Shown here: positions 26,485-63,344 of the stretch, piece by piece
Numbering within the stretch: position 1 is the stretch's first letter
How the letters are laid out: each line of letters opens with the position of its first letter
Assembly: GCF_003285545.1 (NCBI RefSeq)
Contig: NZ_QLNV01000006.1
Location: 186,001 to 250,000 of the forward strand
From: Sinomicrobium soli
GTDB lineage: Bacteria > Bacteroidota > Bacteroidia > Flavobacteriales > Flavobacteriaceae
Direction of reading: 5' to 3'
DNA: 64,000 nt
Notes under the pieces: model-generated
The model's input: the letters and a program-made list of their open reading frames with translations, nothing else
Databases searched by the model: none
What the model was told of the DNA's origin: nothing
Made by a program: the position numbers and the translations under genes

Positions 26485-27150
26485 TTACAAGGATAGAAAG
26501 GGTTTGAAAAAATACATGGTGAGCTTTATGATATCTTCTTTCGCTCTGTACAACTGCTTTTTCACAGAACCTACAGATATGGCCAGGGCTTCTGCAATTT
26601 CTTCATATTTCATTTGCTCAAAATAGCGCATAATGAATATCTTTTTTTTCTGATCTGAAAAGCGCTCCATGGCGCTATGTATTTGATGAATAAGCCGATT
26701 ATGATGTTCTGCATGTGCCACATAGTCATCCTTATCGGCAAGGAATAAGGCCGCTTGTAAGGAAGAGATATCGCGTATATCCTCGATGTTTACCTTCTTT
26801 AGCGCAAGGAGACAACCGTTTTTGACCATCATGTACAAATAAGATTTGAGTGAGGATTTTATTACTATTTTATCGCTTTTCTCCCATAATTGAATGAAGG
26901 CTTCCTGAACGATATCTTCACTCCGTGCTGTATCTGCCATAAACGTGCGCGCAAAATATACCAAAGGGGTATAGTATTTAACAAACAGTTTTTCCACCAC
27001 CTCACTGGTGATTTTTTGCGATTTTTCCAAGGCTATGAGATATTGATGGCACACTTTTAAAAGAGATAAAAAAATGTAGGAATTGTTGACAATAATTGAG
27101 GGTGAAATTGAAGACAGACTTATCTGATAACACTTTTTAGAATATTTCAA
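26485..27150 (-). CDS. ECF sigma factor, second one in locus A
   Basis: Region 2 is at VEKLFVKYYTPLVYFARTF with SEDIVQEAFIQLWEKSD. Region 4 is at RFSDQKKKIFIMRYFEQMKYEEIAEALAISVGSVKKQLYRAKEDI (landmarks KYEEIAEALA and VGSVKKQLYRAK). The frame from 27150 gives 221 residues; the first 32 are unusual for the family and contain no other ATG, so a GTG at 27054 (VCHQYLIALEK) may be the true start. No FecR neighbours it. It may be an orphan or serve the minus operon of locus A. Confidence 0.85.
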   Translation of the reverse strand: MKYSKKCYQISLSSISPSIIVNNSYIFLSLLKVCHQYLIALEKSQKITSEVVEKLFVKYYTPLVYFARTFMADTARSEDIVQEAFIQLWEKSDKIVIKSSLKSYLYMMVKNGCLLALKKVNIEDIRDISSLQAALFLADKDDYVAHAEHHNRLIHQIHSAMERFSDQKKKIFIMRYFEQMKYEEIAEALAISVGSVKKQLYRAKEDIIKLTMYFFKPFLSL

Positions 27151-27455
27151 ATGCCTTGCTAATTTTTAAAATTATTGTTTTATGCTGCTTGGGGGCTCAA
27201 GCAGTTTTTCAGAAATTCGATGGTCCTTATCAGGTCTGTACGCGATTTGTAAACCTTTTGAGGCTTGCCGTAATAAAGTGTAGAAAAAGGGAAAACACCG
27301 GTCACTTTCCCCTAAAAAATGAATATTTTTCGAAGTGCGGAACTCTCATCCGGATGCCGGTGTTCTTAGAATAGGTAGTTAGATTAGCAAAGACAAAGAT
27401 ATCCAAATACGGTTCTTACCGGAAAGAATATGAGTACTTTAACAAAAACCAATGT
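27151..27455. other. Intergenic stretch upstream of the second sigma gene
   Basis: These 305 bases contain only one clear structure: a hairpin with a T run readable on the plus strand (27185-27209). No gene is supported. The sigma promoter should lie near 27160-27250. Confidence 0.4.
27185..27209 (+). terminator. Terminator-like hairpin facing the plus strand
   Basis: CTGCTTG (27185-27191) pairs with CAAGCAG (27198-27204) around a 6-base loop, followed by TTTTT. No plus-strand gene ends upstream, so it would stop an antisense transcript, or simply fold in the leader of the sigma mRNA. Confidence 0.35.
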
Positions 27456-27665
27456 TTATATCTTGATATGGCCCTTTCGGGCCAGTAGCACGAACAGGTG
27501 TATGATGGTCTGTGCCTTAAACTCTTTTTTGAGTTTACTGAGCTCCTTTTCTATAGTGCTTAAACTACACGGGCGAATGTCCCGGTTTTTGAGATAGCCA
27601 GACACCTCGGCCTGTGTATAGCCCTGGGCCATTTTCCGGATGATCATTTTTTGTATTCGGGTCAT
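27456..27665 (-). CDS. Stand-alone LuxR-like helix-turn-helix protein
   Basis: This 69-residue protein starts MTRIQKMIIRKMAQGYTQAEV and continues with SLSTIEKELSKLKKEF and VLLARKGHI. The order is that of a response-regulator output domain. It resembles the C-terminal parts of the two response regulators of locus B, which end with ATDRTLVIAARKKGII and DDKALLKVAREKGFI. No receiver domain is encoded upstream. It may be an independent regulator of locus A or the surviving half of a response regulator. Confidence 0.6.
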   Translation of the reverse strand: MTRIQKMIIRKMAQGYTQAEVSGYLKNRDIRPCSLSTIEKELSKLKKEFKAQTIIHLFVLLARKGHIKI

Positions 27666-27876
27666 TGTGATTTAAATTGTAATAGCTATGAGAATCTAAC
27701 CCCAAACAGCTTAATTCTCAGAAAAGCCAATTGACGAACAGCTTAATAAATGTCTAATGAATATTATCGCAGTAACGTTTACTTAAAGATATTATTTTTT
27801 TATTAACGTTAGTTTACAACGATGTTTCGTTTATTTCGTTTATTTTTGTAAAACTGGAAAGCAATTCACAACCATC

Positions 27877-28332
27877 ATGGAACCAATAAAAAAAATAAAC
27901 AGACCTTCAAAGGACGAACAAAAGTTAGCCATAGAGTCCTATGAAGCGTTAGCCGCTGTTATAGAACAATTAAAGTCGGAAAATCCGGAAATTGAAATTG
28001 AAGAGACCCATGAAAGCATCAGAATCCCGTTGCGTGCATTAAAACTTCTGGGCGAAATTTTAAAGGCTATGAGCCAGGGTAAGCCGTTTTCTCTTGTTCC
28101 GGTGGCTACAGAAGTAACGACCCAAAAAGCTGCCGAAATTTTGGGATGTTCAAGACCTCATTTAGTTAAACTACTCGAAGACGGTGCGATTGAGTACACC
28201 AAAGTCGGTAAGCACAGGAGAGTCAGGTTTGAGGATGTTATGCGCTACAAAAGAAAAATGAAAAAGAGTCAGAAACAACATATCATTGACATGATGAAGG
28301 CTGACGAAGAATTGGGATTATATGATTCATAG
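27877..28332 (+). CDS. HTH antitoxin of a PIN toxin-antitoxin pair
   Basis: This 151-residue protein ends in an excisionase/MerR-like HTH: VTTQKAAEILGCSRPHLVKLLEDGAI followed by VGKHRRVRFEDVMRYK (landmarks AEILGCSRPHLVKLLE and GKHRRVRFED). The N-terminal half is a helical dimerisation-type region. The gene overlaps the PIN gene by 11 bases, the classic antitoxin-first order. The upstream region contains a TATTTTTG (27841-27848) -7-like element and two GTTTCGTTTATTTC-like repeats where the protein may bind to repress itself. Confidence 0.8.
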   Translation: MEPIKKINRPSKDEQKLAIESYEALAAVIEQLKSENPEIEIEETHESIRIPLRALKLLGEILKAMSQGKPFSLVPVATEVTTQKAAEILGCSRPHLVKLLEDGAIEYTKVGKHRRVRFEDVMRYKRKMKKSQKQHIIDMMKADEELGLYDS

Positions 28333-28885
28333 TGTAAGATTCAAATGTGTTCTGGACACCAACGTTATTTATCCTATAGAGACAAGAGATCTGCTTTTTT
28401 GGTTTGCATACTATGAAATGTATACCCCAAAATGGAGTCAGCATATCTTTGATGAATGGAAAGATGTGATGCAGCGCAAAGGCGTAAGTGAACAAGAGGC
28501 TTTAAAAAGAGTAGAAAAAGCGAATCTGGCTTTTCCTGATGCTTTGGTCACGAATTATACGGGACTGATTACTCATTTAAGGTTACCAGATCCAAAAGAC
28601 TGCCATGTTTTAGCAGCCGCCATAAAGACCAATGCTAATGTAATTGTCACTAATAATACTAAAGATTTCCCCCAGGATTACCTGGCATCCTTTGGTTTAA
28701 CGGCTAAAACGGCTGATGATTTTTTAACTGATATTATTGATTTAAATACAGATCAAGCCGTTAAGGCTTTCAAACAATTAGTTTTGAATCGGCGAAATCC
28801 GGATTTAAACGAATTTGAAGTTCTTGATATTTTAAGGAAACAAGGGTTGAATGATACTGCTGATTTTCTACACTCGCAGTTGTAA
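28322..28885 (+). CDS. PIN-domain ribonuclease toxin
   Basis: This 187-residue PIN protein has the acidic active-site residues at the expected places: CVLDTNVIYP near residue 10, FDEWKDV near 45, LPDPKDCHVLAAA near 90, and VTNNTKDFP near 110. PIN toxins cut RNA. Overlap with the upstream HTH gene marks it as the toxin of a type II pair. It lies in the gap between locus A and locus B. Confidence 0.82.
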   Translation: MIHSVRFKCVLDTNVIYPIETRDLLFWFAYYEMYTPKWSQHIFDEWKDVMQRKGVSEQEALKRVEKANLAFPDALVTNYTGLITHLRLPDPKDCHVLAAAIKTNANVIVTNNTKDFPQDYLASFGLTAKTADDFLTDIIDLNTDQAVKAFKQLVLNRRNPDLNEFEVLDILRKQGLNDTADFLHSQL

Positions 28886-29272
28886 TTTTTCAAAGACGAT
28901 TATACCCCATTGGTTGTAAAGCGTATTAATAAGAAGAACATCTACGGAATTCTTTAATCTTAGGCACACTGGTAGGCTACTATAAAACAGCCTTTCCGGC
29001 CTTCGTACTATAACGAATTTTAATGAATAATTGTTGTTTTATAAAAATAATTCATAATTTAGCCCTAAGCTGTTACGGTATGTAACAGCCATCCCATCCC
29101 CTTAAAAAGCCCAAATCCCGGAAACCAAGTTCCCGGCTGCCCGGTAAGGTGCGGCCTACAGAGAAGCGTTATAGTGATCTTATTATTCGGATCATGTATA
29201 AACAAAAAGAACCTTATGTAGCTATCTTTTCCATCCCTGGTAGCTAATGTTGGCCCGGTATATTCATACCCG
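28886..29272. other. Intergenic stretch upstream of the locus B sigma gene
   Basis: These 387 bases hold no supported gene, terminator or clear repeat. The promoter of the sigma gene must lie within it; no exact TTG-N19-TANNTTTG was found. Confidence 0.4.
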
Positions 29273-29911
29273 GTGATTTACACAAAACAGTATGACATGA
29301 AAGCCGATTTTATTTTGAGGCAGCATGTGTCGGATACCAACCGGAACGGGGATCGTATAACCAGGGACCAATTCACCGATGACATGCAATTATGGCAGCG
29401 TTTCCAGGCCGGGGACCGGGAGGCTTTTTGTGCCATGTATGCCCGGCATTTTTCCGTGCTTTATCATTACGGATTACAAATGGTACGCGATCGTGAATTA
29501 GTGAAAGATGCCATTCAGAATTTTTTTATCTACCTGTGGGAGCACCGGGAAGGGCTTGGTAAAGTTCAAGTATTAAAAGCCTATCTATTGGTGGGTTTGC
29601 GAAGAACGATGATCCGACAAGCCCGGGAAGCGGGAAAGCTGCTTCACACCATAGATGAAGACGATAAATGGCCTGAGATAGCCACCGAAGAGCCTAATGT
29701 ACACCTGGCATGGGAGACCCGGGAAACCCACCGGGAACTACAAGCAGCATTATCCCAACTTAGCCAGCGGCAACAGGAAGTATTGCACCTTAAATTTCAT
29801 GCCGGGCTATCCTATAGCCAGATTGCCGAGGTATTGAACCTTAAAAAAGATAACGTGTCTTACCATATTCGGCAGGCTTTTGAAAAGCTTAGGGAGGTGA
29901 TGGGAACGTAA
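29273..29911 (+). CDS. ECF sigma factor of locus B (FecI-like)
   Basis: Region 2 is at AGDREAFCAMYARHFSVLYHYG with VKDAIQNFFIYLWEHRE. Region 4 is at LSQRQQEVLHLKFHAGLSYSQIAEVLNLKKDNVSYHIRQAFEKL (landmarks LSYSQIAEVLNLKKDNV and YHIRQAFEKLREVMG). ATG codons at 29273 and 29297 are both possible. It should pair with the FecR at 31612, but three small genes and a second copy of its own region 4 now lie between them. The last 156 coding bases recur at 30584-30739. Confidence 0.88.
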   Translation: MIYTKQYDMKADFILRQHVSDTNRNGDRITRDQFTDDMQLWQRFQAGDREAFCAMYARHFSVLYHYGLQMVRDRELVKDAIQNFFIYLWEHREGLGKVQVLKAYLLVGLRRTMIRQAREAGKLLHTIDEDDKWPEIATEEPNVHLAWETRETHRELQAALSQLSQRQQEVLHLKFHAGLSYSQIAEVLNLKKDNVSYHIRQAFEKLREVMGT

Positions 29912-29917
29912 TAACCC
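29756..29917 (+). repeat. Direct repeat, copy 1: 3-prime end of the sigma gene
   Basis: These 162 bases covering sigma region 4, the stop codon and six more bases recur at 30584-30745. I count 9 mismatches and no gaps, about 94% identity. Several changes are silent in the coding frame. The two copies flank the ParE/antitoxin pair. Confidence 0.9.
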
Positions 29918-29965
29918 TGCCCGGGAGAGGTAATGCTACCGAAAAGAAGCATCTTAAGCATCCCT

Positions 29966-30271
29966 TCAAAGAGTTTCATTCATTTTGGCAGGGTTTTGAC
30001 GGGTGTCGAACACGTTGGCTACTTCGATCCGGTTATATGGATAATTTATCCAATACAAAATTTTATAGTTTTTACAGACCAGGTAACGAAAATCTTTTTC
30101 TTTGTGCTTGAGGATATGCTCTATCTGGCCTATTTCAGGCTGTTTTTCGATACCAATGGTAGCATCCACAATTTCATTTACCAATTTCCTGGCGACACGT
30201 TTTCCCGCTCTTACACTGTAATAATTAAGTTTATCTTCGGCAAGTTGCAACCAGTAAACTTCTAACCCCAT
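29966..30271 (-). CDS. RelE/ParE-superfamily toxin
   Basis: This 101-residue protein has the ParE/RelE fold pattern: VYWLQLAEDKLNYY at the start, a helical hairpin (ARKLVNEIVDATIGIEKQPEIGQ), then strands FRYLVCKNYKILYWINY and RIEVANVFDTRQNP. Such toxins act on gyrase or on ribosome-bound mRNA; which one cannot be told. Its start overlaps the antitoxin stop by 10 bases. It lies antisense to the flanking sigma copies. Confidence 0.82.
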   Translation of the reverse strand: MGLEVYWLQLAEDKLNYYSVRAGKRVARKLVNEIVDATIGIEKQPEIGQIEHILKHKEKDFRYLVCKNYKILYWINYPYNRIEVANVFDTRQNPAKMNETL

Positions 30272-30583: not shown

Positions 30584-30739
30584 CAACTTAGCCAACGGCA
30601 ACAGGAAGTATTACACCTTAAATTTTATGCCGGGCTATCCTATAGCCAGATTGCCGAAGTATTGAACCTTAAAAAGGATAATGTCTCTTACCATATTCGG
30701 CAGGCTTTTGAAAAGCTTAGGCAGGTGATGGGAAGGTAA
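30584..30739 (+). pseudogene. Detached second copy of sigma region 4
   Basis: Read in frame, this gives QLSQRQQEVLHLKFYAGLS and onward to the same end as the intact sigma factor (LRQVMGR), then a stop. Only the C-terminal 52 residues are present; region 2 is absent. A longer open frame from 30392 exists only because the antisense of the antitoxin is open. It is best seen as the displaced 3-prime end of the sigma gene after a cassette was inserted. Confidence 0.8.
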
Positions 30740-30745
30740 TAACCC
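30584..30745 (+). repeat. Direct repeat, copy 2: displaced sigma gene end
   Basis: This is the second copy of the 162-base repeat at 29756-29917 (9 mismatches, no gaps). The unique sequence between the copies is 666 bases and carries the ParE/antitoxin pair on the opposite strand. Confidence 0.9.
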
Positions 30746-30828: not shown

Positions 30829-30844
30829 TAAAGAAGTGTTAATA

Positions 30845-31447
30845 ATGGAAAGTATAGCATTCAAAATGAAAAAACATATATCCGGAAAGGGTCGGGGGGT
30901 ATTACTATTTCCCGATGATTTCAGGCAATTCGGGTCGTCAGATGCCGTACGATTGGCATTGCATCGTATGGAAAAAGAAGGATACATACGACGAATAGCG
31001 CAAGGTATATATGTTCGTCCCAAAATAAGCAAATATGTGGGCGAAGTAATACCAACGGCAGAAGAAATCGCTAAAGCCATTGCTAAGCGGGACAAAATCA
31101 GGTTAGTACCTACTGGGGTATATGCCATGAGTGCACTGGGGCTTAGTACGCAAGTACCCATGAAATTGGTTTTTCTAACTGATGGGGCTCCTCGTGAAAT
31201 AAAATTGGGAAAGCGAACCATTAAGCTAAAAAAAACCACGCCAAAAAACCTGTCTGCTAAAGGCGAAATAAGTGGGTTGGTTATCCAGGCCCTCCGCGAG
31301 ATAGGACAACAACAATTAACAGCAAAGGAAGAGAGAAAGATTATAGCCCTGCTCAAAGAAGAAAATAAAAAACATCTTCTTTACGATATAGCCTTGGCCC
31401 CGGTATGGATTCAGAAGGTTATGAAAAAGGCTCTGGACCATGAATAA
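30845..31447 (+). CDS. AbiEi-like (DUF6088) antitoxin, partner missing
   Basis: Starting at the ATG at 30845 gives 200 residues beginning MESIAFKMKKHISGKGRG. An N-terminal winged helix (LHRMEKEGYIRRIAQGIYV) is followed by an AbiEi-like domain (PTGVYAMSALGLSTQVP, VFLTDGAPREIKLG). Such proteins are antitoxins and autorepressors of type IV AbiE systems, whose toxin is the nucleotidyltransferase AbiEii. Here the toxin gene begins in the right place but stops after 23 codons (31440-31511). The gene is therefore probably an orphan. Confidence 0.75.
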   Translation: MESIAFKMKKHISGKGRGVLLFPDDFRQFGSSDAVRLALHRMEKEGYIRRIAQGIYVRPKISKYVGEVIPTAEEIAKAIAKRDKIRLVPTGVYAMSALGLSTQVPMKLVFLTDGAPREIKLGKRTIKLKKTTPKNLSAKGEISGLVIQALREIGQQQLTAKEERKIIALLKEENKKHLLYDIALAPVWIQKVMKKALDHE

Positions 31448-31611: not shown

Positions 31612-32853
31612 ATGAAATACAAGCATTACAAAACGGTAGATTTTTGCCAGGACGAGTACTTCCAGCAATGGGTGCTACACCCCGATGAAGACTCACAGCA
31701 ATTTTGGGAAGCTTTCCTGGGAGAGCATCCCTGGCAGAAAGAGACGGTAGCCGAAGCCGCCGAAATGGTCCGGGGATGGAACAGGGCCATAAACGAAAAG
31801 GCTAACGCTGCAAGTAGGTACGTACACCAGGATTTTGAAGAAGTCTTCCGGAATATCAAACACGGTACGGAAGCCAAACCTGTAAGTACAAGAGCTACCC
31901 AAAAGGGATGGGAGGGTAGTACCTGGCTAAAGGTCGCTGCTGGTTTTACAGGTCTTGCCGGGCTTGCTTTATGGGGGGTATTCCAGTTTGGATTATGGCA
32001 ACGGGAGGGGACACCAACAGCACCACAAATTACCCTGCAACTGGAAGACGGCACCCTGCACGTCATTGATAATGACGCTACGGGAACCATCACCACCAAA
32101 GACGGTAAGACGGTGGGCCAACAGGACAAGCATATTTTGGTCTATAACAATAGGGTGAGCAATGCAACAACGGGGCCGGCGTATAATAAGCTTTCGGTGC
32201 CTTATGGCCGGCAATTTGAATTAGTATTGTCTGATAGTTCTCATGTATATTTGAACGCCGGCTCTACGTTGCGCTACCCGCGGCAGTTTCTGCCCGGAAA
32301 GCCCCGCGAAGTCTACCTCGATGGGGAAGCCTTCTTCGAAGTAACCCGCGATACCACCCGCACCTTTACCGTGGCTACCCGCGATATGAACACGGTAGTC
32401 TATGGCACCCGGTTTAATGTAACGAGTTACCATAACGAAGCCAGCCCGTATACCGTACTCGTAGAGGGGAGTGTAGGAGTGTACCGCAGCGGGGCGGAAG
32501 ATATCCGGAAGATCACCCCCGGACAAATGGCCACCCTGGATAAGGATAGTATGACCATAGCTGCCGTGAATGTGCATAAGTACACCGCCTGGACCAGCGG
32601 GGAGTTATATTTTATGGACGATCCTTTTGCCCTTATCCTTCGCAAACTGGAACGCCATTATAATGTGACGATAAAGAACACTTACACCGCGCTGGACACC
32701 GAACAACTAACATCTTCCTTCCACGAGGAAGATTCCCTTGAACTGGTAATGCGCATTCTCGCAAAATTAAAACCGTTCCGGTACCACCGGGAAGGGAGTA
32801 GAATAACCATACAGGCCCTGGAGACACCCCAGGAAAAACACACTGCACCGTAG
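31612..32853 (+). CDS. FecR-family anti-sigma factor of locus B
   Basis: This 413-residue protein has an N-terminal cytoplasmic domain (FQQWVLHPDEDSQQFWEAFL), one membrane segment (about 105-128, VAAGFTGLAGLALWGVFQFG) and the periplasmic FecR domain (KPREVYLDGEAFFEV, YGTRFNVTSY, LVEGSVGVY). A C-terminal STN-contact domain follows (DPFALILRKLERHYNVTI). It is the counterpart of the FecR in locus A. Its sigma factor lies 1.7 kb upstream beyond the inserted toxin-antitoxin genes, so co-transcription is no longer likely. Confidence 0.9.
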   Translation: MKYKHYKTVDFCQDEYFQQWVLHPDEDSQQFWEAFLGEHPWQKETVAEAAEMVRGWNRAINEKANAASRYVHQDFEEVFRNIKHGTEAKPVSTRATQKGWEGSTWLKVAAGFTGLAGLALWGVFQFGLWQREGTPTAPQITLQLEDGTLHVIDNDATGTITTKDGKTVGQQDKHILVYNNRVSNATTGPAYNKLSVPYGRQFELVLSDSSHVYLNAGSTLRYPRQFLPGKPREVYLDGEAFFEVTRDTTRTFTVATRDMNTVVYGTRFNVTSYHNEASPYTVLVEGSVGVYRSGAEDIRKITPGQMATLDKDSMTIAAVNVHKYTAWTSGELYFMDDPFALILRKLERHYNVTIKNTYTALDTEQLTSSFHEEDSLELVMRILAKLKPFRYHREGSRITIQALETPQEKHTAP

Positions 32854-49887: not shown

Positions 49888-51009
49888 ATGAAAATAGCCT
49901 TTTACAACGTAGAAAATATCTTTCACAGGGACGCTGGCCTGGTGCAACCACATGTAGGGCGGGGCGTAAAAATGTGGATGGAAGAACTGGAAACCTACCT
50001 GACCAAAGACCGGCGTACGGACCGGGACTATGAGCGCATGCGGGAGCTTAGCTTTTTATTGGGATTCGAACGGGTGTCGTACGAACCCTATGTCGTGATG
50101 CGCCGGCGTTGGGGCGGACTGTATATCCGCAAAAGAGGGCATACGATGGATTATAAAGCCGACAGCCTGACCCATTGGAACGGTTGGATCAAGGTACAGA
50201 CCTTTCCGGTGGGCGAACAGGCTATAGCGAACAAAGCCAGGGTGATCCGGGAGGTGAACCCGGATATCCTGCTGTTGCAGGAAGTGGAAGACCGTACCAC
50301 TGTAGAGGATTTTAACGACCTGTTCTTTAGCCAGACCGAAGAAAGCATATATCATCATTTCCATGTCTTGTGCGGACATGATTACCGGGGATTGGAAATG
50401 GGGGTGATGTCCAATAAGAAATATCCCGTACATAGCGTTCGTAGTCTTAATGTGCTCCGGGAGGGCGTAGGATTGTTTCCACAAGATTTTCAGCATTACA
50501 CCTTTCAATGCTCCAAAAAGAAAACGGTACACGTGCTTTTTGCCCAGTTGCAATCCCCCACCGGAAAACAGGAGTGGGTAACGGGTCGTCGTAAAGCGCA
50601 GGCTCATGCTATGGGCAAAGCCTACCGGAAATTACGCGGGCAGGGTGAGGCCCATATCATTATGGCCGGGACCTTCTATATGCCCTATTATGCCGATGCG
50701 CTTTCGCCCATATTCCGGGATACGGATGTTAAGGATATTTCCAAACACCCCACCTTTCAGCCCACGCCTGATAACGGCAAAGACGGGAGTTATTTCCGGC
50801 TGGGGGCCTATCGCCTGGGGGTAAACATCCGGCAGGAAGATTTTTTATTGCTGTCCCCGGAACTTTTTGACAGGGTTACTGCCAGCGGCCTGAACCGCAA
50901 GGGGATGTGGCCCAAAAACCGGTCGCAGTGGGAGACCTATGATACCGTGCAAAATGAACAGGAAGCCGCCAGTCACCATCCGTTGTTGTGGTGTGATCTG
51001 GATATATAG
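49888..51009 (+). CDS. Endonuclease/exonuclease/phosphatase-family protein with altered active site
   Basis: This 373-residue protein starts MKIAFYNVENIF (Asn7) and has LLLQEVED (Glu132), both typical of the EEP fold. The GDFN motif, with its catalytic Asp and Asn, is replaced by AGTFYMP, and the final SDH motif reads ASHHPL, keeping the His but not the Asp. An N-terminal insertion of about 100 residues precedes the Glu motif. Activity is thus doubtful; it may bind nucleic acid or phosphate without cutting. It starts 7 bases after the ATPase gene, so it belongs to the element operon. Confidence 0.7.
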   Translation: MKIAFYNVENIFHRDAGLVQPHVGRGVKMWMEELETYLTKDRRTDRDYERMRELSFLLGFERVSYEPYVVMRRRWGGLYIRKRGHTMDYKADSLTHWNGWIKVQTFPVGEQAIANKARVIREVNPDILLLQEVEDRTTVEDFNDLFFSQTEESIYHHFHVLCGHDYRGLEMGVMSNKKYPVHSVRSLNVLREGVGLFPQDFQHYTFQCSKKKTVHVLFAQLQSPTGKQEWVTGRRKAQAHAMGKAYRKLRGQGEAHIIMAGTFYMPYYADALSPIFRDTDVKDISKHPTFQPTPDNGKDGSYFRLGAYRLGVNIRQEDFLLLSPELFDRVTASGLNRKGMWPKNRSQWETYDTVQNEQEAASHHPLLWCDLDI

Positions 51010-58816: not shown

Positions 58817-59632
58817 ATGCTTATGAAAACCTATATCATCCTGTTATTTGTACTGATCTATGGATCACTGAGTGCCCAAAAACCATTGGACACACTCTAT
58901 GCCAATGATAGAACTACCGTATCCCTTTTCTTCCCGGAGCCTATCCGCCAGGGGATTACCGGTGCAGACCATTTTGTATTTACTTACAACCCGGAGACCC
59001 CGCAATACCTGGGGCTACTTAAGGCCATGCCCGGTGCAGAGAGTAATCTGTTGGTGCTCACCACGGACGGCCAGGTATATAGCTATATCCTGAAATACCG
59101 GGAGAAGCTCCCGGAGCTTAATTATTTTATCGGGAAACAAAAAAGCATCGGCCATGAGAAAGGATTAAAGCCGGAGAAGGATACTTCCCTTCAGGAACAA
59201 ACGTACCGGGATACTCTACAAATAGCCCCGAACCGAAAGACGGGTATCATTCGCCTGTGCCAGTACCTCATACGTCAGGACAAACGGATCACGTCCAAAA
59301 GGCGTAAAAAACTCAAACTTACCCTGAAACAAGTGGTACACCGTCGCGGGGAGGTTTATGTATCCCTGGAACTGGAAAACAAATCGGCTATCGACTACGA
59401 GCTGGATTATATCCGGCTTTACGTGGAGAATGGGAACAATAAGAAAAATGCATCGTACCAGAAGATCTTACATGATACCGTATACACCCACCAGGTTCCG
59501 GAGGTGGTCCGTAGTAAGGAGCGGAAACGTTTTGTACTGGTGTTCCCGAAGTTCACTTTGGGGAAACAGGAAAATTTGCTGATCGAGATGGGGGAGCGGA
59601 ATGGGCATAGGGTGATGGAATTAAAGCAATGA
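58817..59632 (+). CDS. traN: Conjugation protein TraN (DUF4138, VirB9-like)
   Basis: This 271-residue secreted protein has a signal peptide (YIILLFVLIYGSLSAQ) and the TraN start PLDTLYANDRTTVSLFFPEPI. It ends with a beta-rich domain (LKQVVHRRGEVYVSLELENKS, YELDYIRLYVEN). ATGs at 58817 and 58823 are possible. It is the last tra gene in this direction; traO, traP and traQ are not found here. Confidence 0.87.
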   Translation: MLMKTYIILLFVLIYGSLSAQKPLDTLYANDRTTVSLFFPEPIRQGITGADHFVFTYNPETPQYLGLLKAMPGAESNLLVLTTDGQVYSYILKYREKLPELNYFIGKQKSIGHEKGLKPEKDTSLQEQTYRDTLQIAPNRKTGIIRLCQYLIRQDKRITSKRRKKLKLTLKQVVHRRGEVYVSLELENKSAIDYELDYIRLYVENGNNKKNASYQKILHDTVYTHQVPEVVRSKERKRFVLVFPKFTLGKQENLLIEMGERNGHRVMELKQ

Positions 59633-59653: not shown

Positions 59654-59965
59654 CTAATGATTTTCTAATTCAGCTTCCAGCGAATCAATCAGATCATCGT
59701 AATAACTTTGCTCTTCTATCTTTCTATCGGTCAGAAGTGACTCGGGATAGCCCCCTCGGAGCCTGTCTAACAGCTCGCTTTTTTTTCTCTTTAAGTGACG
59801 AATGTGACCAAGCTTTAAATGTATGGCACGGTCGTCTTCCTGCACTATTAGTGGCAAGAGGATCTCAAAAACAAAAAAATTCAACTGCTGGATTTCAGTA
59901 GATTTTAGGACATTCTCTAAAAGTATAGATGTTACGATTTCATCAAGTTCTTTAATATCTTTCAT
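59654..59965 (-). CDS. Unknown small helical protein
   Basis: This 103-residue soluble, helical protein contains VTSILLENVLKSTEIQQLNFF, LKLGHIRHLKRKKSELLDRLRGG and SYYDDLIDSLEAELENH (landmarks LGHIRHLKRKKSELLDRL and LIDSLEAEL). There is no signal peptide. It is convergent with traN, 21 bases apart. I recognise no family; it is probably an accessory gene of the element. Confidence 0.5.
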   Translation of the reverse strand: MKDIKELDEIVTSILLENVLKSTEIQQLNFFVFEILLPLIVQEDDRAIHLKLGHIRHLKRKKSELLDRLRGGYPESLLTDRKIEEQSYYDDLIDSLEAELENH

Positions 59966-60141: not shown

Positions 60142-60340
60142 CTATCCGAATAGTTTCCTGACTTCCGCACGAATCCTCAAAAACCCGGCATCGATATCCA
60201 CCGGGTTTTCCGGTAGTGGGGGTAGGGCTTTATCGATATCATGCTTTTTGAATTGTACCCTTTTTTCCTTACCATCGGCAAACGCCACAAACTCTCCGGG
60301 TTTGAGCCTGAAAAACCGATCAGCTTGAATATTGACTACT
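60142..60340 (-). repeat. Direct repeat, copy A: displaced end of the coupling-protein gene
   Basis: About 199 bases repeat the 3-prime end of the coupling-protein gene at 60725-60923. Over the 189 bases from the stop codon inward I count 26 mismatches and no gaps (about 86% identity). The copies flank the DUF6922-like gene, which lies on the other strand. Confidence 0.88.
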
Positions 60341-60372
60341 AATTCCGGCATGAATTTAGTGTAATGGTCCAA
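60142..60372 (-). pseudogene. Detached C-terminal end of a coupling protein
   Basis: The open frame encodes 76 residues. The last 63 (QADRFFRLKPGEFVAFADGK... to RKLFG) match the C-terminus of the coupling protein at 60725 with about 10 differences. The first 13 residues (MDHYTKFMPELVV) are unrelated sequence from the joined cassette. No ATPase domain remains, so it is most simply a displaced gene end. Whether the short protein is made is unknown. Confidence 0.75.
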
Positions 60373-60385
60373 TATTCAGTAAATT

Positions 60386-60399
60386 TGTACTTTAGTACA
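60386..60399 (+). promoter_or_regulatory. -7 element and small inverted repeat before the DUF6922-like gene
   Basis: TAAATTTG at 60380-60387 matches the Bacteroidota -7 consensus. It runs into TGTAC (60386-60390) / GTACA (60395-60399), a short inverted repeat 3 bases before the ATG. A self-repressing antitoxin could bind there. Confidence 0.4.
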
Positions 60400-60402
60400 G
60401 TT

Positions 60403-60690
60403 ATGGAAAAGGCAATAAACATAGTGAAACATTTTCCCAAGCATCTGTTTTGGGATATGGATGCCAGTAGATTATCTGTAAAAAGGGATAAGGCTATTAT
60501 CATTCCCAGGGCTTTGTTTGCCACAACTGCATCAAGTTTTGAAAAGGATATTCAAAAGCTGGAGAAACTCTATTCCGCAAAAGAAATTGTTTCCGTATTA
60601 AAAGTGACCAAAGAGCATATCAGTAATGAAGTATGTATACTGGTTGCCCGACATTATCATACGGAGCCCTTTTTTAGATATACTTTTTAA
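60403..60690 (+). CDS. DUF6922-like antitoxin-type protein, partner missing
   Basis: The ATG at 60403 gives 95 residues: MEKAINIVKHFPKHLFWDMDASRLSVKRDKAIIIPRALF is the region (cited landmarks HFPKHLFWDMDASRLSV and IIPRALFATT), then KLYSAKEIVSVLKVTKEHIS. This resembles DUF6922 proteins, which usually precede an AbiEii-like nucleotidyltransferase toxin. No such toxin follows: 34 bases later the coupling-protein gene ends on the other strand. It is thus likely an orphan antitoxin. It lies within a cassette flanked by copies of the coupling-gene end. Confidence 0.65.
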   Translation: MEKAINIVKHFPKHLFWDMDASRLSVKRDKAIIIPRALFATTASSFEKDIQKLEKLYSAKEIVSVLKVTKEHISNEVCILVARHYHTEPFFRYTF

Positions 60691-60724
60691 TAAGGGTGTT
60701 AATCTATGACATGACTACAGAGAA

Positions 60725-60923
60725 TCATCCGAACAAATTTCTGACTTCGGTATGAATCCTCAAAAACCCAGTATCGATATCCACCGGGTTTTCCGGTAGT
60801 GGGGGCAAGTCTTTAGCGATGACATGCTTTTTGAATTGTACCCGTTTTTCCCTGCCATCGGCAAAAGCCACGAACTCTCCGGGTTTGAGCCTGAAAAACC
60901 GATCTGCCCGGATCTTGGCTACT
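60725..60923 (-). repeat. Direct repeat, copy B: end of the intact coupling-protein gene
   Basis: This is the 3-prime end of the full coupling-protein gene, repeated at 60142-60340 with about 86% identity and no gaps in the 189 bases counted. The unique segment between the copies is 384 bases. Confidence 0.88.
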
Positions 60924-62302
60924 TCTCTTTCTGACTTGGTGATTCGGGTCCGAGGGTTGGTCCATTCCCCTTTACTGACACTGGTGGCCTTCCGTTTTAC
61001 GATCTCAAAAAACTGTTCGTAATACCGGGCCGTATCCGGATCATTGGCTTTTCCGAAAAACTGGTACGAGAGGTTACTCAGGATAGCCTTGCTGGCTTTA
61101 TCCCCATAGAGCAGGTCGTTTTGTATCTTATCCTGCAAGACATACAGGGTGGTAATGTCAAAACTCCGGAGCGTTGCCGGGATACGGTGCATGTTAAGAA
61201 GCCGTATGGTGGGGGCTTCCTCCATAAGAACAAAGGAGGGTAAACGACTGCGAACACTCATCTGTTTGGTCATGGTGTGCATAATGGTGGCCAGTACCGG
61301 AGCATAAGAGGTTTCAAACAGCGGGTTATTGACCAGGGATACCACCGCAGGGTGATCCTCATGATTGATATCCAGGGGCACTTCATCCGCGGAGAGCAGG
61401 GTAAAGAGCCGCCTGGTAGCGATCTTTTTAAAAGCGTTGGCCAGGGTGCTTTTGACTGCTGCAGTCTGCCGCTCCGAATCGATACCGCTGATAAAGGCAT
61501 CGGCCATGGCGTGGGATGTCCGGTTGGAACTCAAAAAATCGGCCAGTTCCTCGGTATCCAGGTACTGGTATAGTGCGATGACATGGGGAAGGGTACAGTA
61601 TTGCGGATAATCCGTGCGCAGTTTCCAGATCATCCCGGCGATAAGCCCTTCTACGGCGTCGTTAAAGAAGCGGGAGGACCCCACGGCCGAGGAGTCCTTC
61701 ATCTCCAGGAGGTTTTCCAAGAGGACGCGGGAGACCTCGTTAACGGATTCCTCCTGTTCCAGGTATCGTGGTGCAATAGGATTGACCCGGAAATAGATCT
61801 GATCCGGGGATACGATATAAAACGGAATGTTCGCCCGTTGAAACAGGGGATAAGCGATCTCGGTGAGTTCAAAATGCTTGTAGTCGTGCATTACCCCGCA
61901 AAAGGAGTGCTCCCCGAGGTGCTGTAACAGCTTATAGACCACGCTTTCCGTTTTTCCACTCCCGGCCGCCCCGATGATCGAGACACCCCTTCGGATATTG
62001 TGCAGGGTAAGCGATCCGCCGGCATGCGGGATTTTCACCGTGTATATTTTTGGTTTCTTTGGAAGCAGTATATAACACATCCGGATATACGCCGCGGTAA
62101 GCAATAGCCATGCAGGGCCCTGGGCTATAGCTACGATTTTTAAACCGACTGTTCCCGGAATGTGCCAGTACCAGGTAAACCCGGCCAACAGGGACATGAT
62201 CCCGGTGGCCGCAAAACCCTTATGGATGCCCTGGAACCTTATGGCCGGGAAGAAGAGTAGTAGTGTAAATACGGGGAGGTAGATATAATTATAGGGAAAC
62301 AT
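60725..62302 (-). CDS. mobC: Type IV coupling protein (VirD4/TraG-like, MobC of Bacteroidetes elements)
   Basis: The ATG at 62302 gives 525 residues; an ATG at 62353 would overlap the relaxase gene. Two membrane segments at the N-terminus (about 5-75) are followed by the ATPase: Walker A GAAGSGKTESVVYKLL, Walker B FVLMEEAPTIRLL, and LANAFKKIATRRLFTLL. It brings the relaxase-DNA complex to the channel. The gene follows the relaxase with a 19-base gap. Its C-terminal end (ADRFFRLKPGEFVAFADG onward) is repeated beyond the antitoxin cassette. Confidence 0.88.
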   Translation of the reverse strand: MFPYNYIYLPVFTLLLFFPAIRFQGIHKGFAATGIMSLLAGFTWYWHIPGTVGLKIVAIAQGPAWLLLTAAYIRMCYILLPKKPKIYTVKIPHAGGSLTLHNIRRGVSIIGAAGSGKTESVVYKLLQHLGEHSFCGVMHDYKHFELTEIAYPLFQRANIPFYIVSPDQIYFRVNPIAPRYLEQEESVNEVSRVLLENLLEMKDSSAVGSSRFFNDAVEGLIAGMIWKLRTDYPQYCTLPHVIALYQYLDTEELADFLSSNRTSHAMADAFISGIDSERQTAAVKSTLANAFKKIATRRLFTLLSADEVPLDINHEDHPAVVSLVNNPLFETSYAPVLATIMHTMTKQMSVRSRLPSFVLMEEAPTIRLLNMHRIPATLRSFDITTLYVLQDKIQNDLLYGDKASKAILSNLSYQFFGKANDPDTARYYEQFFEIVKRKATSVSKGEWTNPRTRITKSEREVAKIRADRFFRLKPGEFVAFADGREKRVQFKKHVIAKDLPPLPENPVDIDTGFLRIHTEVRNLFG

Positions 62303-62321
62303 TGTTTGAAGTAATATAAGG

Positions 62322-63344
62322 TTAATAGCCGTGTTCTGCATCTTTGGTGACATTAATGGCCTTGCGCAGCGCTTTAATGGTCTTAAGGGCGAGCTGGGTT
62401 TTGGTAGTGGGGATAGCGAGTTTCGGGATACCGATGCCAGATTCCCGGAGAATCGAGAGGGCCTTTTTCCGCTCTTTTTTCGGAGCTTTTAAAAGCAGTT
62501 CAAAGTATTTTTTAGGATCGTTTACCATCAGTTTACGCGCCTGGTAGTGTTCCGCAAAATTGCGCCGGTAGCCGGTCATACGGTCAAAGGTCTTCTCGGT
62601 ACTTGAAAAAAAATGATCCCGGTCAAAGCCCCGTTTGACCGTTTTTCCGTTGAGCTCGACCTGGGAAGCCTTGTATTTACCCCCGGGAGAGAGGCTATAG
62701 GTATTGGTATCATCTTTACGGCTGACAATAAGATGAATATGGGTCTGGAGCCCCGGTTTGGGCATGCCTTGTGCAATGAGCTTCCCGTCTATTTTATGCG
62801 GGGCGGCTTCGGTAAGCTGTTTGATCCGGGTTTTCATGTCCCGGATATTGCCCTTCAGCTCCCCGCGTTCCACTTTTCGGATATTGTTGTTAAGCCGGGC
62901 AATTTTCCTGGAGTAGGGAGCATTTTCGCGGATCTCCAGGTCAAAGCCCTTGTAGGAGCGGTGATGTTCGATCTTGGCGTAGTATTTCAGGTCATTAACC
63001 GTAATTTCCCGGTCCCGGTGAAAGGATTGGGCGTAGCTTTTCATCACTTCCCGGGTATACTCCTTGAGGCTCATGGTCCCTTTTTGCAGATGCTGTAGTT
63101 CCCGTTTACTGGGATTTATGGTAATGGAGTAGAAGCGGGGTTCGGTTTTCCGGAGCTTGGCGGTATTGCTGTCAATGTCCTTAATAACCTCTTTCCGGTG
63201 AACCTTATCGTGCTCCTGGTTAAAAAAATGTTCCTTGGCCTGTGGTGCCTTATCTTCATTTTCCTTTTCGAGATAATCCACGAAATCGGACACACTATTA
63301 CTATAGGTGTCGCTCATACGCTGCGATGTGATGGTGACATACAT
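62322..63344 (-). CDS. mobB: Relaxase/mobilisation protein (MobB-type, DUF5712-like)
   Basis: This 340-residue basic protein has the HxH part of a relaxase active site (LQTHIHLIVSRKD, about 200-212) with a Tyr-rich N-terminus that includes YSNSVSDFVDYLE. PRFYSITINPSKRELQHL and the long basic C-terminus (KAPKKERKKALSIL) match DUF5712/MobB proteins of flavobacterial elements. It should nick the origin of transfer. It starts 4 bases after the BfmA-like gene. Confidence 0.8.
   Translation of the reverse strand: MYVTITSQRMSDTYSNSVSDFVDYLEKENEDKAPQAKEHFFNQEHDKVHRKEVIKDIDSNTAKLRKTEPRFYSITINPSKRELQHLQKGTMSLKEYTREVMKSYAQSFHRDREITVNDLKYYAKIEHHRSYKGFDLEIRENAPYSRKIARLNNNIRKVERGELKGNIRDMKTRIKQLTEAAPHKIDGKLIAQGMPKPGLQTHIHLIVSRKDDTNTYSLSPGGKYKASQVELNGKTVKRGFDRDHFFSSTEKTFDRMTGYRRNFAEHYQARKLMVNDPKKYFELLLKAPKKERKKALSILRESGIGIPKLAIPTTKTQLALKTIKALRKAINVTKDAEHGY

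Follow-up and report, generated by a model that had tools for sequence, protein, structure and literature searches.

A detached mobC 3′ end beside an orphan DUF6922 gene in a Sinomicrobium soli ICE, probably left by the joining of two related elements

Elements that integrate into the 3′ ends of genes and restore the gene are well known. Like the arrangement described here at mobC of a Sinomicrobium soli ICE, they keep the gene whole and leave the old end downstream; the mobC case differs from them in having neither an integrase nor a fixed boundary. The closest precedent is found in the displaced 3′ ends of Vibrio T6SS loci and of Rhs elements. At the Vibrio T6SS loci, for which homology-facilitated illegitimate recombination (HFIR) was proposed as the cause in 2017 (PMC5361080), a new module attaches through homology to a conserved gene and pushes the old 3′ end and its cargo downstream, and protective partner genes can end up orphaned, all of which is paralleled in the reading proposed here for mobC. 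However, the variable 3′ end at the Vibrio loci is the toxin itself, whereas the anchor at mobC is a conserved conjugation gene with a barely altered product and unrelated cargo. Rhs elements share with mobC the strings of detached 3′ ends behind an intact gene (PMC5361080; PMC3967940 on orphan Rhs toxins), but their ends code for toxins and can return to the gene by exchange, whereas no activity of its own is known for the mobC end. HFIR takes place in conjugation (PMC3240628). Additionally, a likeness to AbiE type IV toxin-antitoxin systems is given by DUF6922 genes standing beside AbiEii toxins in relatives; the locus differs from these systems in that its DUF6922 copy has no toxin and in that DUF6922 is not the characterised AbiEi family.

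The mobC repeat and the DUF6922 gene

The window analysed here is a stretch of 64,000 nt (contig NZ_QLNV01000006.1, positions 186,001 to 250,000), and the features of the mobC region are given in its coordinates:

58817-59632, plus strand: traN (DUF4138), the other border of the cargo slot; Pfam DUF4138 5.7e-25, TIGR03780 TraN 1.5e-27, the latter under cut-off
59654-59965, minus strand: 103-aa orphan gene past the detached end, put forward as older cargo that came from the other parent element; no Pfam match
60142-60340, minus strand: detached mobC 3′ end of 65 codons and a TAG stop, interpreted as a scar left by a second mobC allele; 86.8% identity and dN/dS 0.17 against the intact end
60341-60402, plus strand: promoter region of the DUF6922 gene; Joostella homology (60340-60681) stops at the junction
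60403-60690, plus strand: orphan DUF6922 gene, 95 aa if read from the ATG shared with relatives; PF21956 6.5e-12
60691-60724, no strand: 34 bp from the DUF6922 stop to the mobC stop; Joostella has AbiEii and a 228-aa gene at this place, which marks it as the site of the missing AbiEii gene
60725-62353, minus strand: mobC, intact, VirD4/TraG-type coupling protein of 542 aa; Pfam TraG-D_C 1.8e-10, TrwB_AAD_bind 1.9e-9
60727-60923, minus strand: mobC 3′ end, copy still attached, 197 nt direct repeat
62322-63344, minus strand: mobB relaxase, upstream of mobC; NCBIfam MobB_relaxase 6.5e-115, above cut-off

The original prediction of a mobC end repeated around an antisense DUF6922 gene was confirmed: a gap-free direct repeat of 197 nt (60144-60340 and 60727-60923; 86.8% identity, 26 mismatches over 195 coding bases) flanks a unique segment of 386 nt (60341-60726) with a single gene on the plus strand, which matches DUF6922. 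This is the sole direct repeat of at least 100 nt within the last 7 kb of the window. The homology between the two ends extends as far as their stop codons, TGA in the intact and TAG in the detached copy, and the detached end lies within a 76-codon frame (60142-60372, minus strand) that is free of stops and frameshifts. At about 60340/60341 the junction is abrupt, the DUF6922 promoter region abutting detached mobC sequence with no extended homology. By its Pfam matches the window MobC is a coupling protein of the wider family, short of the NF041326 level: its top NCBIfam match is Bacteroid_MobC (NF041326; 3.8e-43), with 147.8 bits under a cut-off of 900. It shares 75% amino acid identity with the Joostella MobC. 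For the 103-aa gene, zero relatives were found in 399 family genomes.

The DUF6922 frame runs from 60364 to 60690 on the plus strand, the first ATG in agreement with relatives being that at 60403, and a PF21956 match of 45.2 bits against a gathering cut-off of 27 places its product in the family. Among 19 fetched DUF6922 loci (L112-L130), an AbiEii gene was found next to DUF6922 in 16 at E<1e-3 and in 18 at E<0.01, and DUF6922 was occasionally fused to a helix-turn-helix. Judged by this neighbourhood, the family probably represents the antitoxin of an AbiEii-type pair. No mention of DUF6922 was found in the literature searched, and no DUF6922 gene was found in viral contigs. The window gene has no adjacent AbiEii nucleotidyltransferase gene and does not form an AbiE-type pair. 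The original proposal of a small antitoxin cassette needs correction here, since the DUF6922 gene is an orphan that lacks the AbiEii toxin gene normally found next to it.

In Joostella atrarenae (L003) the order is mobC, a 228-aa gene, AbiEii and DUF6922; the DUF6922 gene overlaps the AbiEii start, the pair is antisense and downstream of mobC, and a detached mobC end is absent, so that the place of the module at mobC is independent of the detached end. The Joostella DUF6922 protein is 86% identical to that of the window with a dN/dS of 0.11, showing past constraint on the window gene. The nucleotide match between the two (60340-60681, 82%) ends at the detached-end junction on one side and just short of the DUF6922 stop on the other, and the window thus holds the antitoxin-type half only. 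From this comparison the window gene is the probable antitoxin half of an AbiEii-type pair without its toxin gene. Elsewhere in the same genome lies a broken DUF6922-AbiEii remnant (G000 contig C42 ~32041-32359; L069 4042-4359).

Detached gene ends and the mobC-traN cargo slot

The same arrangement had been reported for a sigma-factor gene of the window, and this was found as described, with a 162-nt repeat of 94% identity that encloses, on the minus strand, a gene for a ParE-like toxin and one for its presumed antitoxin:

29756-29917, plus strand: sigma-factor gene 3′ end, attached copy, comparator; direct repeat
30584-30745, plus strand: detached sigma gene 3′ end, comparator; 94% identity, dN/dS 0.12

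Right after the detached sigma end, a DUF6088/AbiEi-type antitoxin gene (30836-31447; Pfam 3.3e-72) is followed by a short frame alone; this seems to be another case of an orphan antitoxin next to a gene-end scar. Scanning of 350 kb of the window's contig (C40) and of four short pieces recognised only these two pairs of intact gene and detached 3′ end, both in the window. A 350-base direct repeat (80%) around a 180-aa gene lies just beyond the window near the end of the mob region (G000 contig C40 252360-254031).

Among 108 family genomes matching the mobC C-terminus, at least three, the window's included, carry intact and detached mobC ends on the same strand within 10 kb, and most mobC loci have no detached end. 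In the Flavobacteriaceae locus L045 a 315-nt repeat (94%) surrounds a 9,152 bp insert with an IS110 element and other genes; in L046 a 408-nt repeat (93%) surrounds a non-coding 427 bp insert with tandem repeats, and the detached end lies directly against a restriction-modification pair, as would be expected of a former mobC border. Isolated detached mobC ends, with the intact partner not nearby, are present in G377, G049, G271 and G213. Moreover, the homologue of the window core gene at 49888-51009 in a same-genus ICE (G399) shows a 199-nt repeat of its 3′ end at 78% identity; the two copies enclose 2.7 kb of cargo, which includes a 672-aa gene in the sense direction, and the detached copy contains stops and frameshifts:

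G399 contig C1, ~4224054-4227138 (joined locus 27055-30139): core-gene scar, decayed detached 3′ end, 2.7 kb downstream

Site-specific integration, in which a mobilizable element attached at the mobC 3′ end, gave a replacement end and shrank to the DUF6922 cassette, would account for a 32-base identical stretch at the 5′ edge of the window repeat. However, the repeat starts vary among the three mobC loci (197, 315 and 408 nt), which indicates that there is no fixed attachment site; no integrase was found among the ORFs of the L045 and L046 inserts or in the 386-base window insert, and the mismatches elsewhere in the repeat have an allelic look. With varying boundaries and no integrase found, this highly improbable explanation was rejected.

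mobC and traN converge in this Flavobacteriaceae ICE family, and the interval between their 3′ ends serves as a cargo slot. In L075 the two stops are separated by 10 bp, while the slot of L072 holds 3.1 kb of cargo, that of L003 5.8 kb, and those of other loci at least 6 kb. Its contents include the AbiEii/DUF6922 pair in L003, a DUF6922-AbiEii pair with a Cas9 gene in L112, a DUF6922-AbiEii pair in L113, and an MvaI/BcnI-type restriction enzyme with a C5 methylase in L046. A CRISPR-like repeat array accompanies the Cas9 gene inside the slot of G017 (L112 1-5122).

Orientation was counted over 28 mobC loci with simple ORF calls of at least 90 aa. Of 27 first cargo genes, 13 were antisense to mobC and 14 sense, the latter counting the L046 detached end itself, and all cargo genes together gave 60 antisense versus 51 sense; antisense orientation of the cargo is a coin toss. 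Cargo antisense to mobC as a continuation of the tra operon was likewise rejected on these counts. The shared geometry of the mobC and sigma cases, put forward originally as a sign of a common mechanism, does not serve as such: a gene-sparing 3′-end duplication can only yield the intact copy first, and finding intact gene, cassette and detached end in this order twice is therefore uninformative on mechanism, while antisense cargo occurs in about half of the cases. A shared route as such fared better, since the arrangement recurs (L045, L046, G399) and cargo stacks at gene ends, but the route is not specific for antitoxins. Inserts at the other loci comprise a 9.15 kb stretch containing IS110, a non-coding stretch with tandem repeats and a 672-aa sense gene other than a toxin, so antitoxin cassettes are not required; conversely, the DUF6922/AbiEii module sits at mobC without a detached end in L003, and a mobC-end repeat sought at the L112 and L113 loci was not found.

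Divergence between attached and detached ends

Between the intact and the detached mobC end of the window, dS is 0.45 and dN 0.077 (ratio 0.17). The corresponding dN/dS ratios are 0.12 for the sigma case, 0.08 for L045 and 0.21 for L046, and the baseline from intact mobC ends of different ICEs is 0.05-0.09 in the informative pairs; one pair outside this set, with just four changes, gives 0.3. Simulations were run with settings chosen by the analyst, namely a dN/dS of 0.1 on constrained branches and equal transition and transversion totals. Under duplication followed by free decay, the observed silent share was reached with P = 0.019 for the window, 0.047 for sigma, 0.001 for L045 and 0.092 for L046. 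A purely allelic simulation fitted sigma and L045 well, the window marginally (P 0.041) and L046 poorly (P 0.009). As the ratios of the window and L046 are somewhat over the allelic baseline and their allelic fit is marginal or poor, some change probably took place after detachment. The simplest reading of these substitution patterns is that most of the divergence would have arisen while both ends sat in working genes of separate elements, which were later juxtaposed by recombination.

A local tandem duplication of the mobC end, whose copies were later parted by an insertion or by loss of the duplicated downstream part, is a simple explanation that agrees with a detached copy without stop or indel and with the tandem repeats in the L046 insert. 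It is nevertheless improbable, given the silent-site excess in four of four cases (weak in L046), the exact abutment of the DUF6922 promoter on the detached end, and the fact that the repeat search of the window found no duplicated downstream sequence next to the detached copy. The open, stop-free frame and the low ratio could also be explained if the detached end had been retained as a functional mini-gene, for example a free MobC tail modulating transfer. This idea is barely credible: such an end would be stop-free with P ~0.66 even if neutral, the comparable detached end of G399 is decayed, and most mobC loci do without one. In the reading given below, the detached mobC end has no required function.

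A search of 399 family and 396 order genomes and of plasmids for the parental allele of the detached end yielded none closer than the intact copy. A parent in which a mobC with the detached allele is directly followed by the 103-aa gene was not found either, which may reflect sampling; the mechanism given below is accordingly proposed and not proven. Comparison with Joostella and G399 gave no independent sign of separate histories of the tra and mob halves, adjacent Tra proteins being 60-82% and MobC/MobB 74-75% identical.

Proposed joining of two related ICEs

The detached end is best explained, with a probability of roughly 0.68, as the scar left when the mobC end of one ICE, together with its cargo, was stacked onto the mobC region of another. 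This reading takes up the slot, the repeat, the allelic-type divergence, the recurrence and the missing toxin, all observed directly; two parents, an order of events and a kind of crossover are what we infer from them. Two related ICEs would have met, and donor DNA consisting of its mobC 3′ end with an AbiEii/DUF6922 module in antisense behind it would have been joined to the mobC region of the recipient. On one side, homologous recombination in the mob region would have taken place, at a crossover point in mobC that was not located; on the other side, the join would be the abrupt junction at about 60340/60341, presumably inside the recipient mobC. The product would be one working mobC with the donor end, the donor cargo, and the old mobC end of the recipient as a scar next to the 103-aa gene, which would be the recipient's own cargo. 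The toxin gene, which is absent, would subsequently have been lost, leaving DUF6922 as an orphan. Joining of this kind would also account for the sigma case and for the scars found at other core genes.

A fragment with a homology anchor on one side and a non-homologous join on the other gives exactly the observed structure. The detached end shows the allele-like divergence, and one of its junctions the lack of extended homology, by which an HFIR scar is recognised; the arrangement fits a known type of recombination scar, and no new mechanism is needed. An alternative origin of the same final order, with two allelic versions of the end, is a small circle of DUF6922 and a mobC end, excised between two mobC-end repeats of another ICE and returned to mobC by a single Campbell-type crossover. 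During conjugation in E. coli, incoming DNA that has been linearised is circularised and then integrated by a single crossover more often than it is joined by HFIR (PMC3240628). This route is rather unlikely here, since it requires a prior event that made the first junction of mobC end and DUF6922, and the Joostella DUF6922 gene has no flanking mobC end.

The joining of two related ICEs would make the detached end a concrete mark of the way in which defence and toxin-antitoxin cargo enters and leaves Flavobacteriaceae ICEs, namely through recombination with related elements at core-gene ends, no integrase or transposase being seen at the junctions. More tentatively, and with the odds rather against it, the 3′ ends of core conjugation genes in Bacteroidota ICEs might be reusable anchors for the stacking of cargo, each round leaving a diverged scar and the slots forming a readable stratigraphy of exchanges. 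Moreover, the locus offers an example of how an antitoxin-type gene can become orphaned, and it connects DUF6922, a family with no assigned function, with AbiEii toxins.
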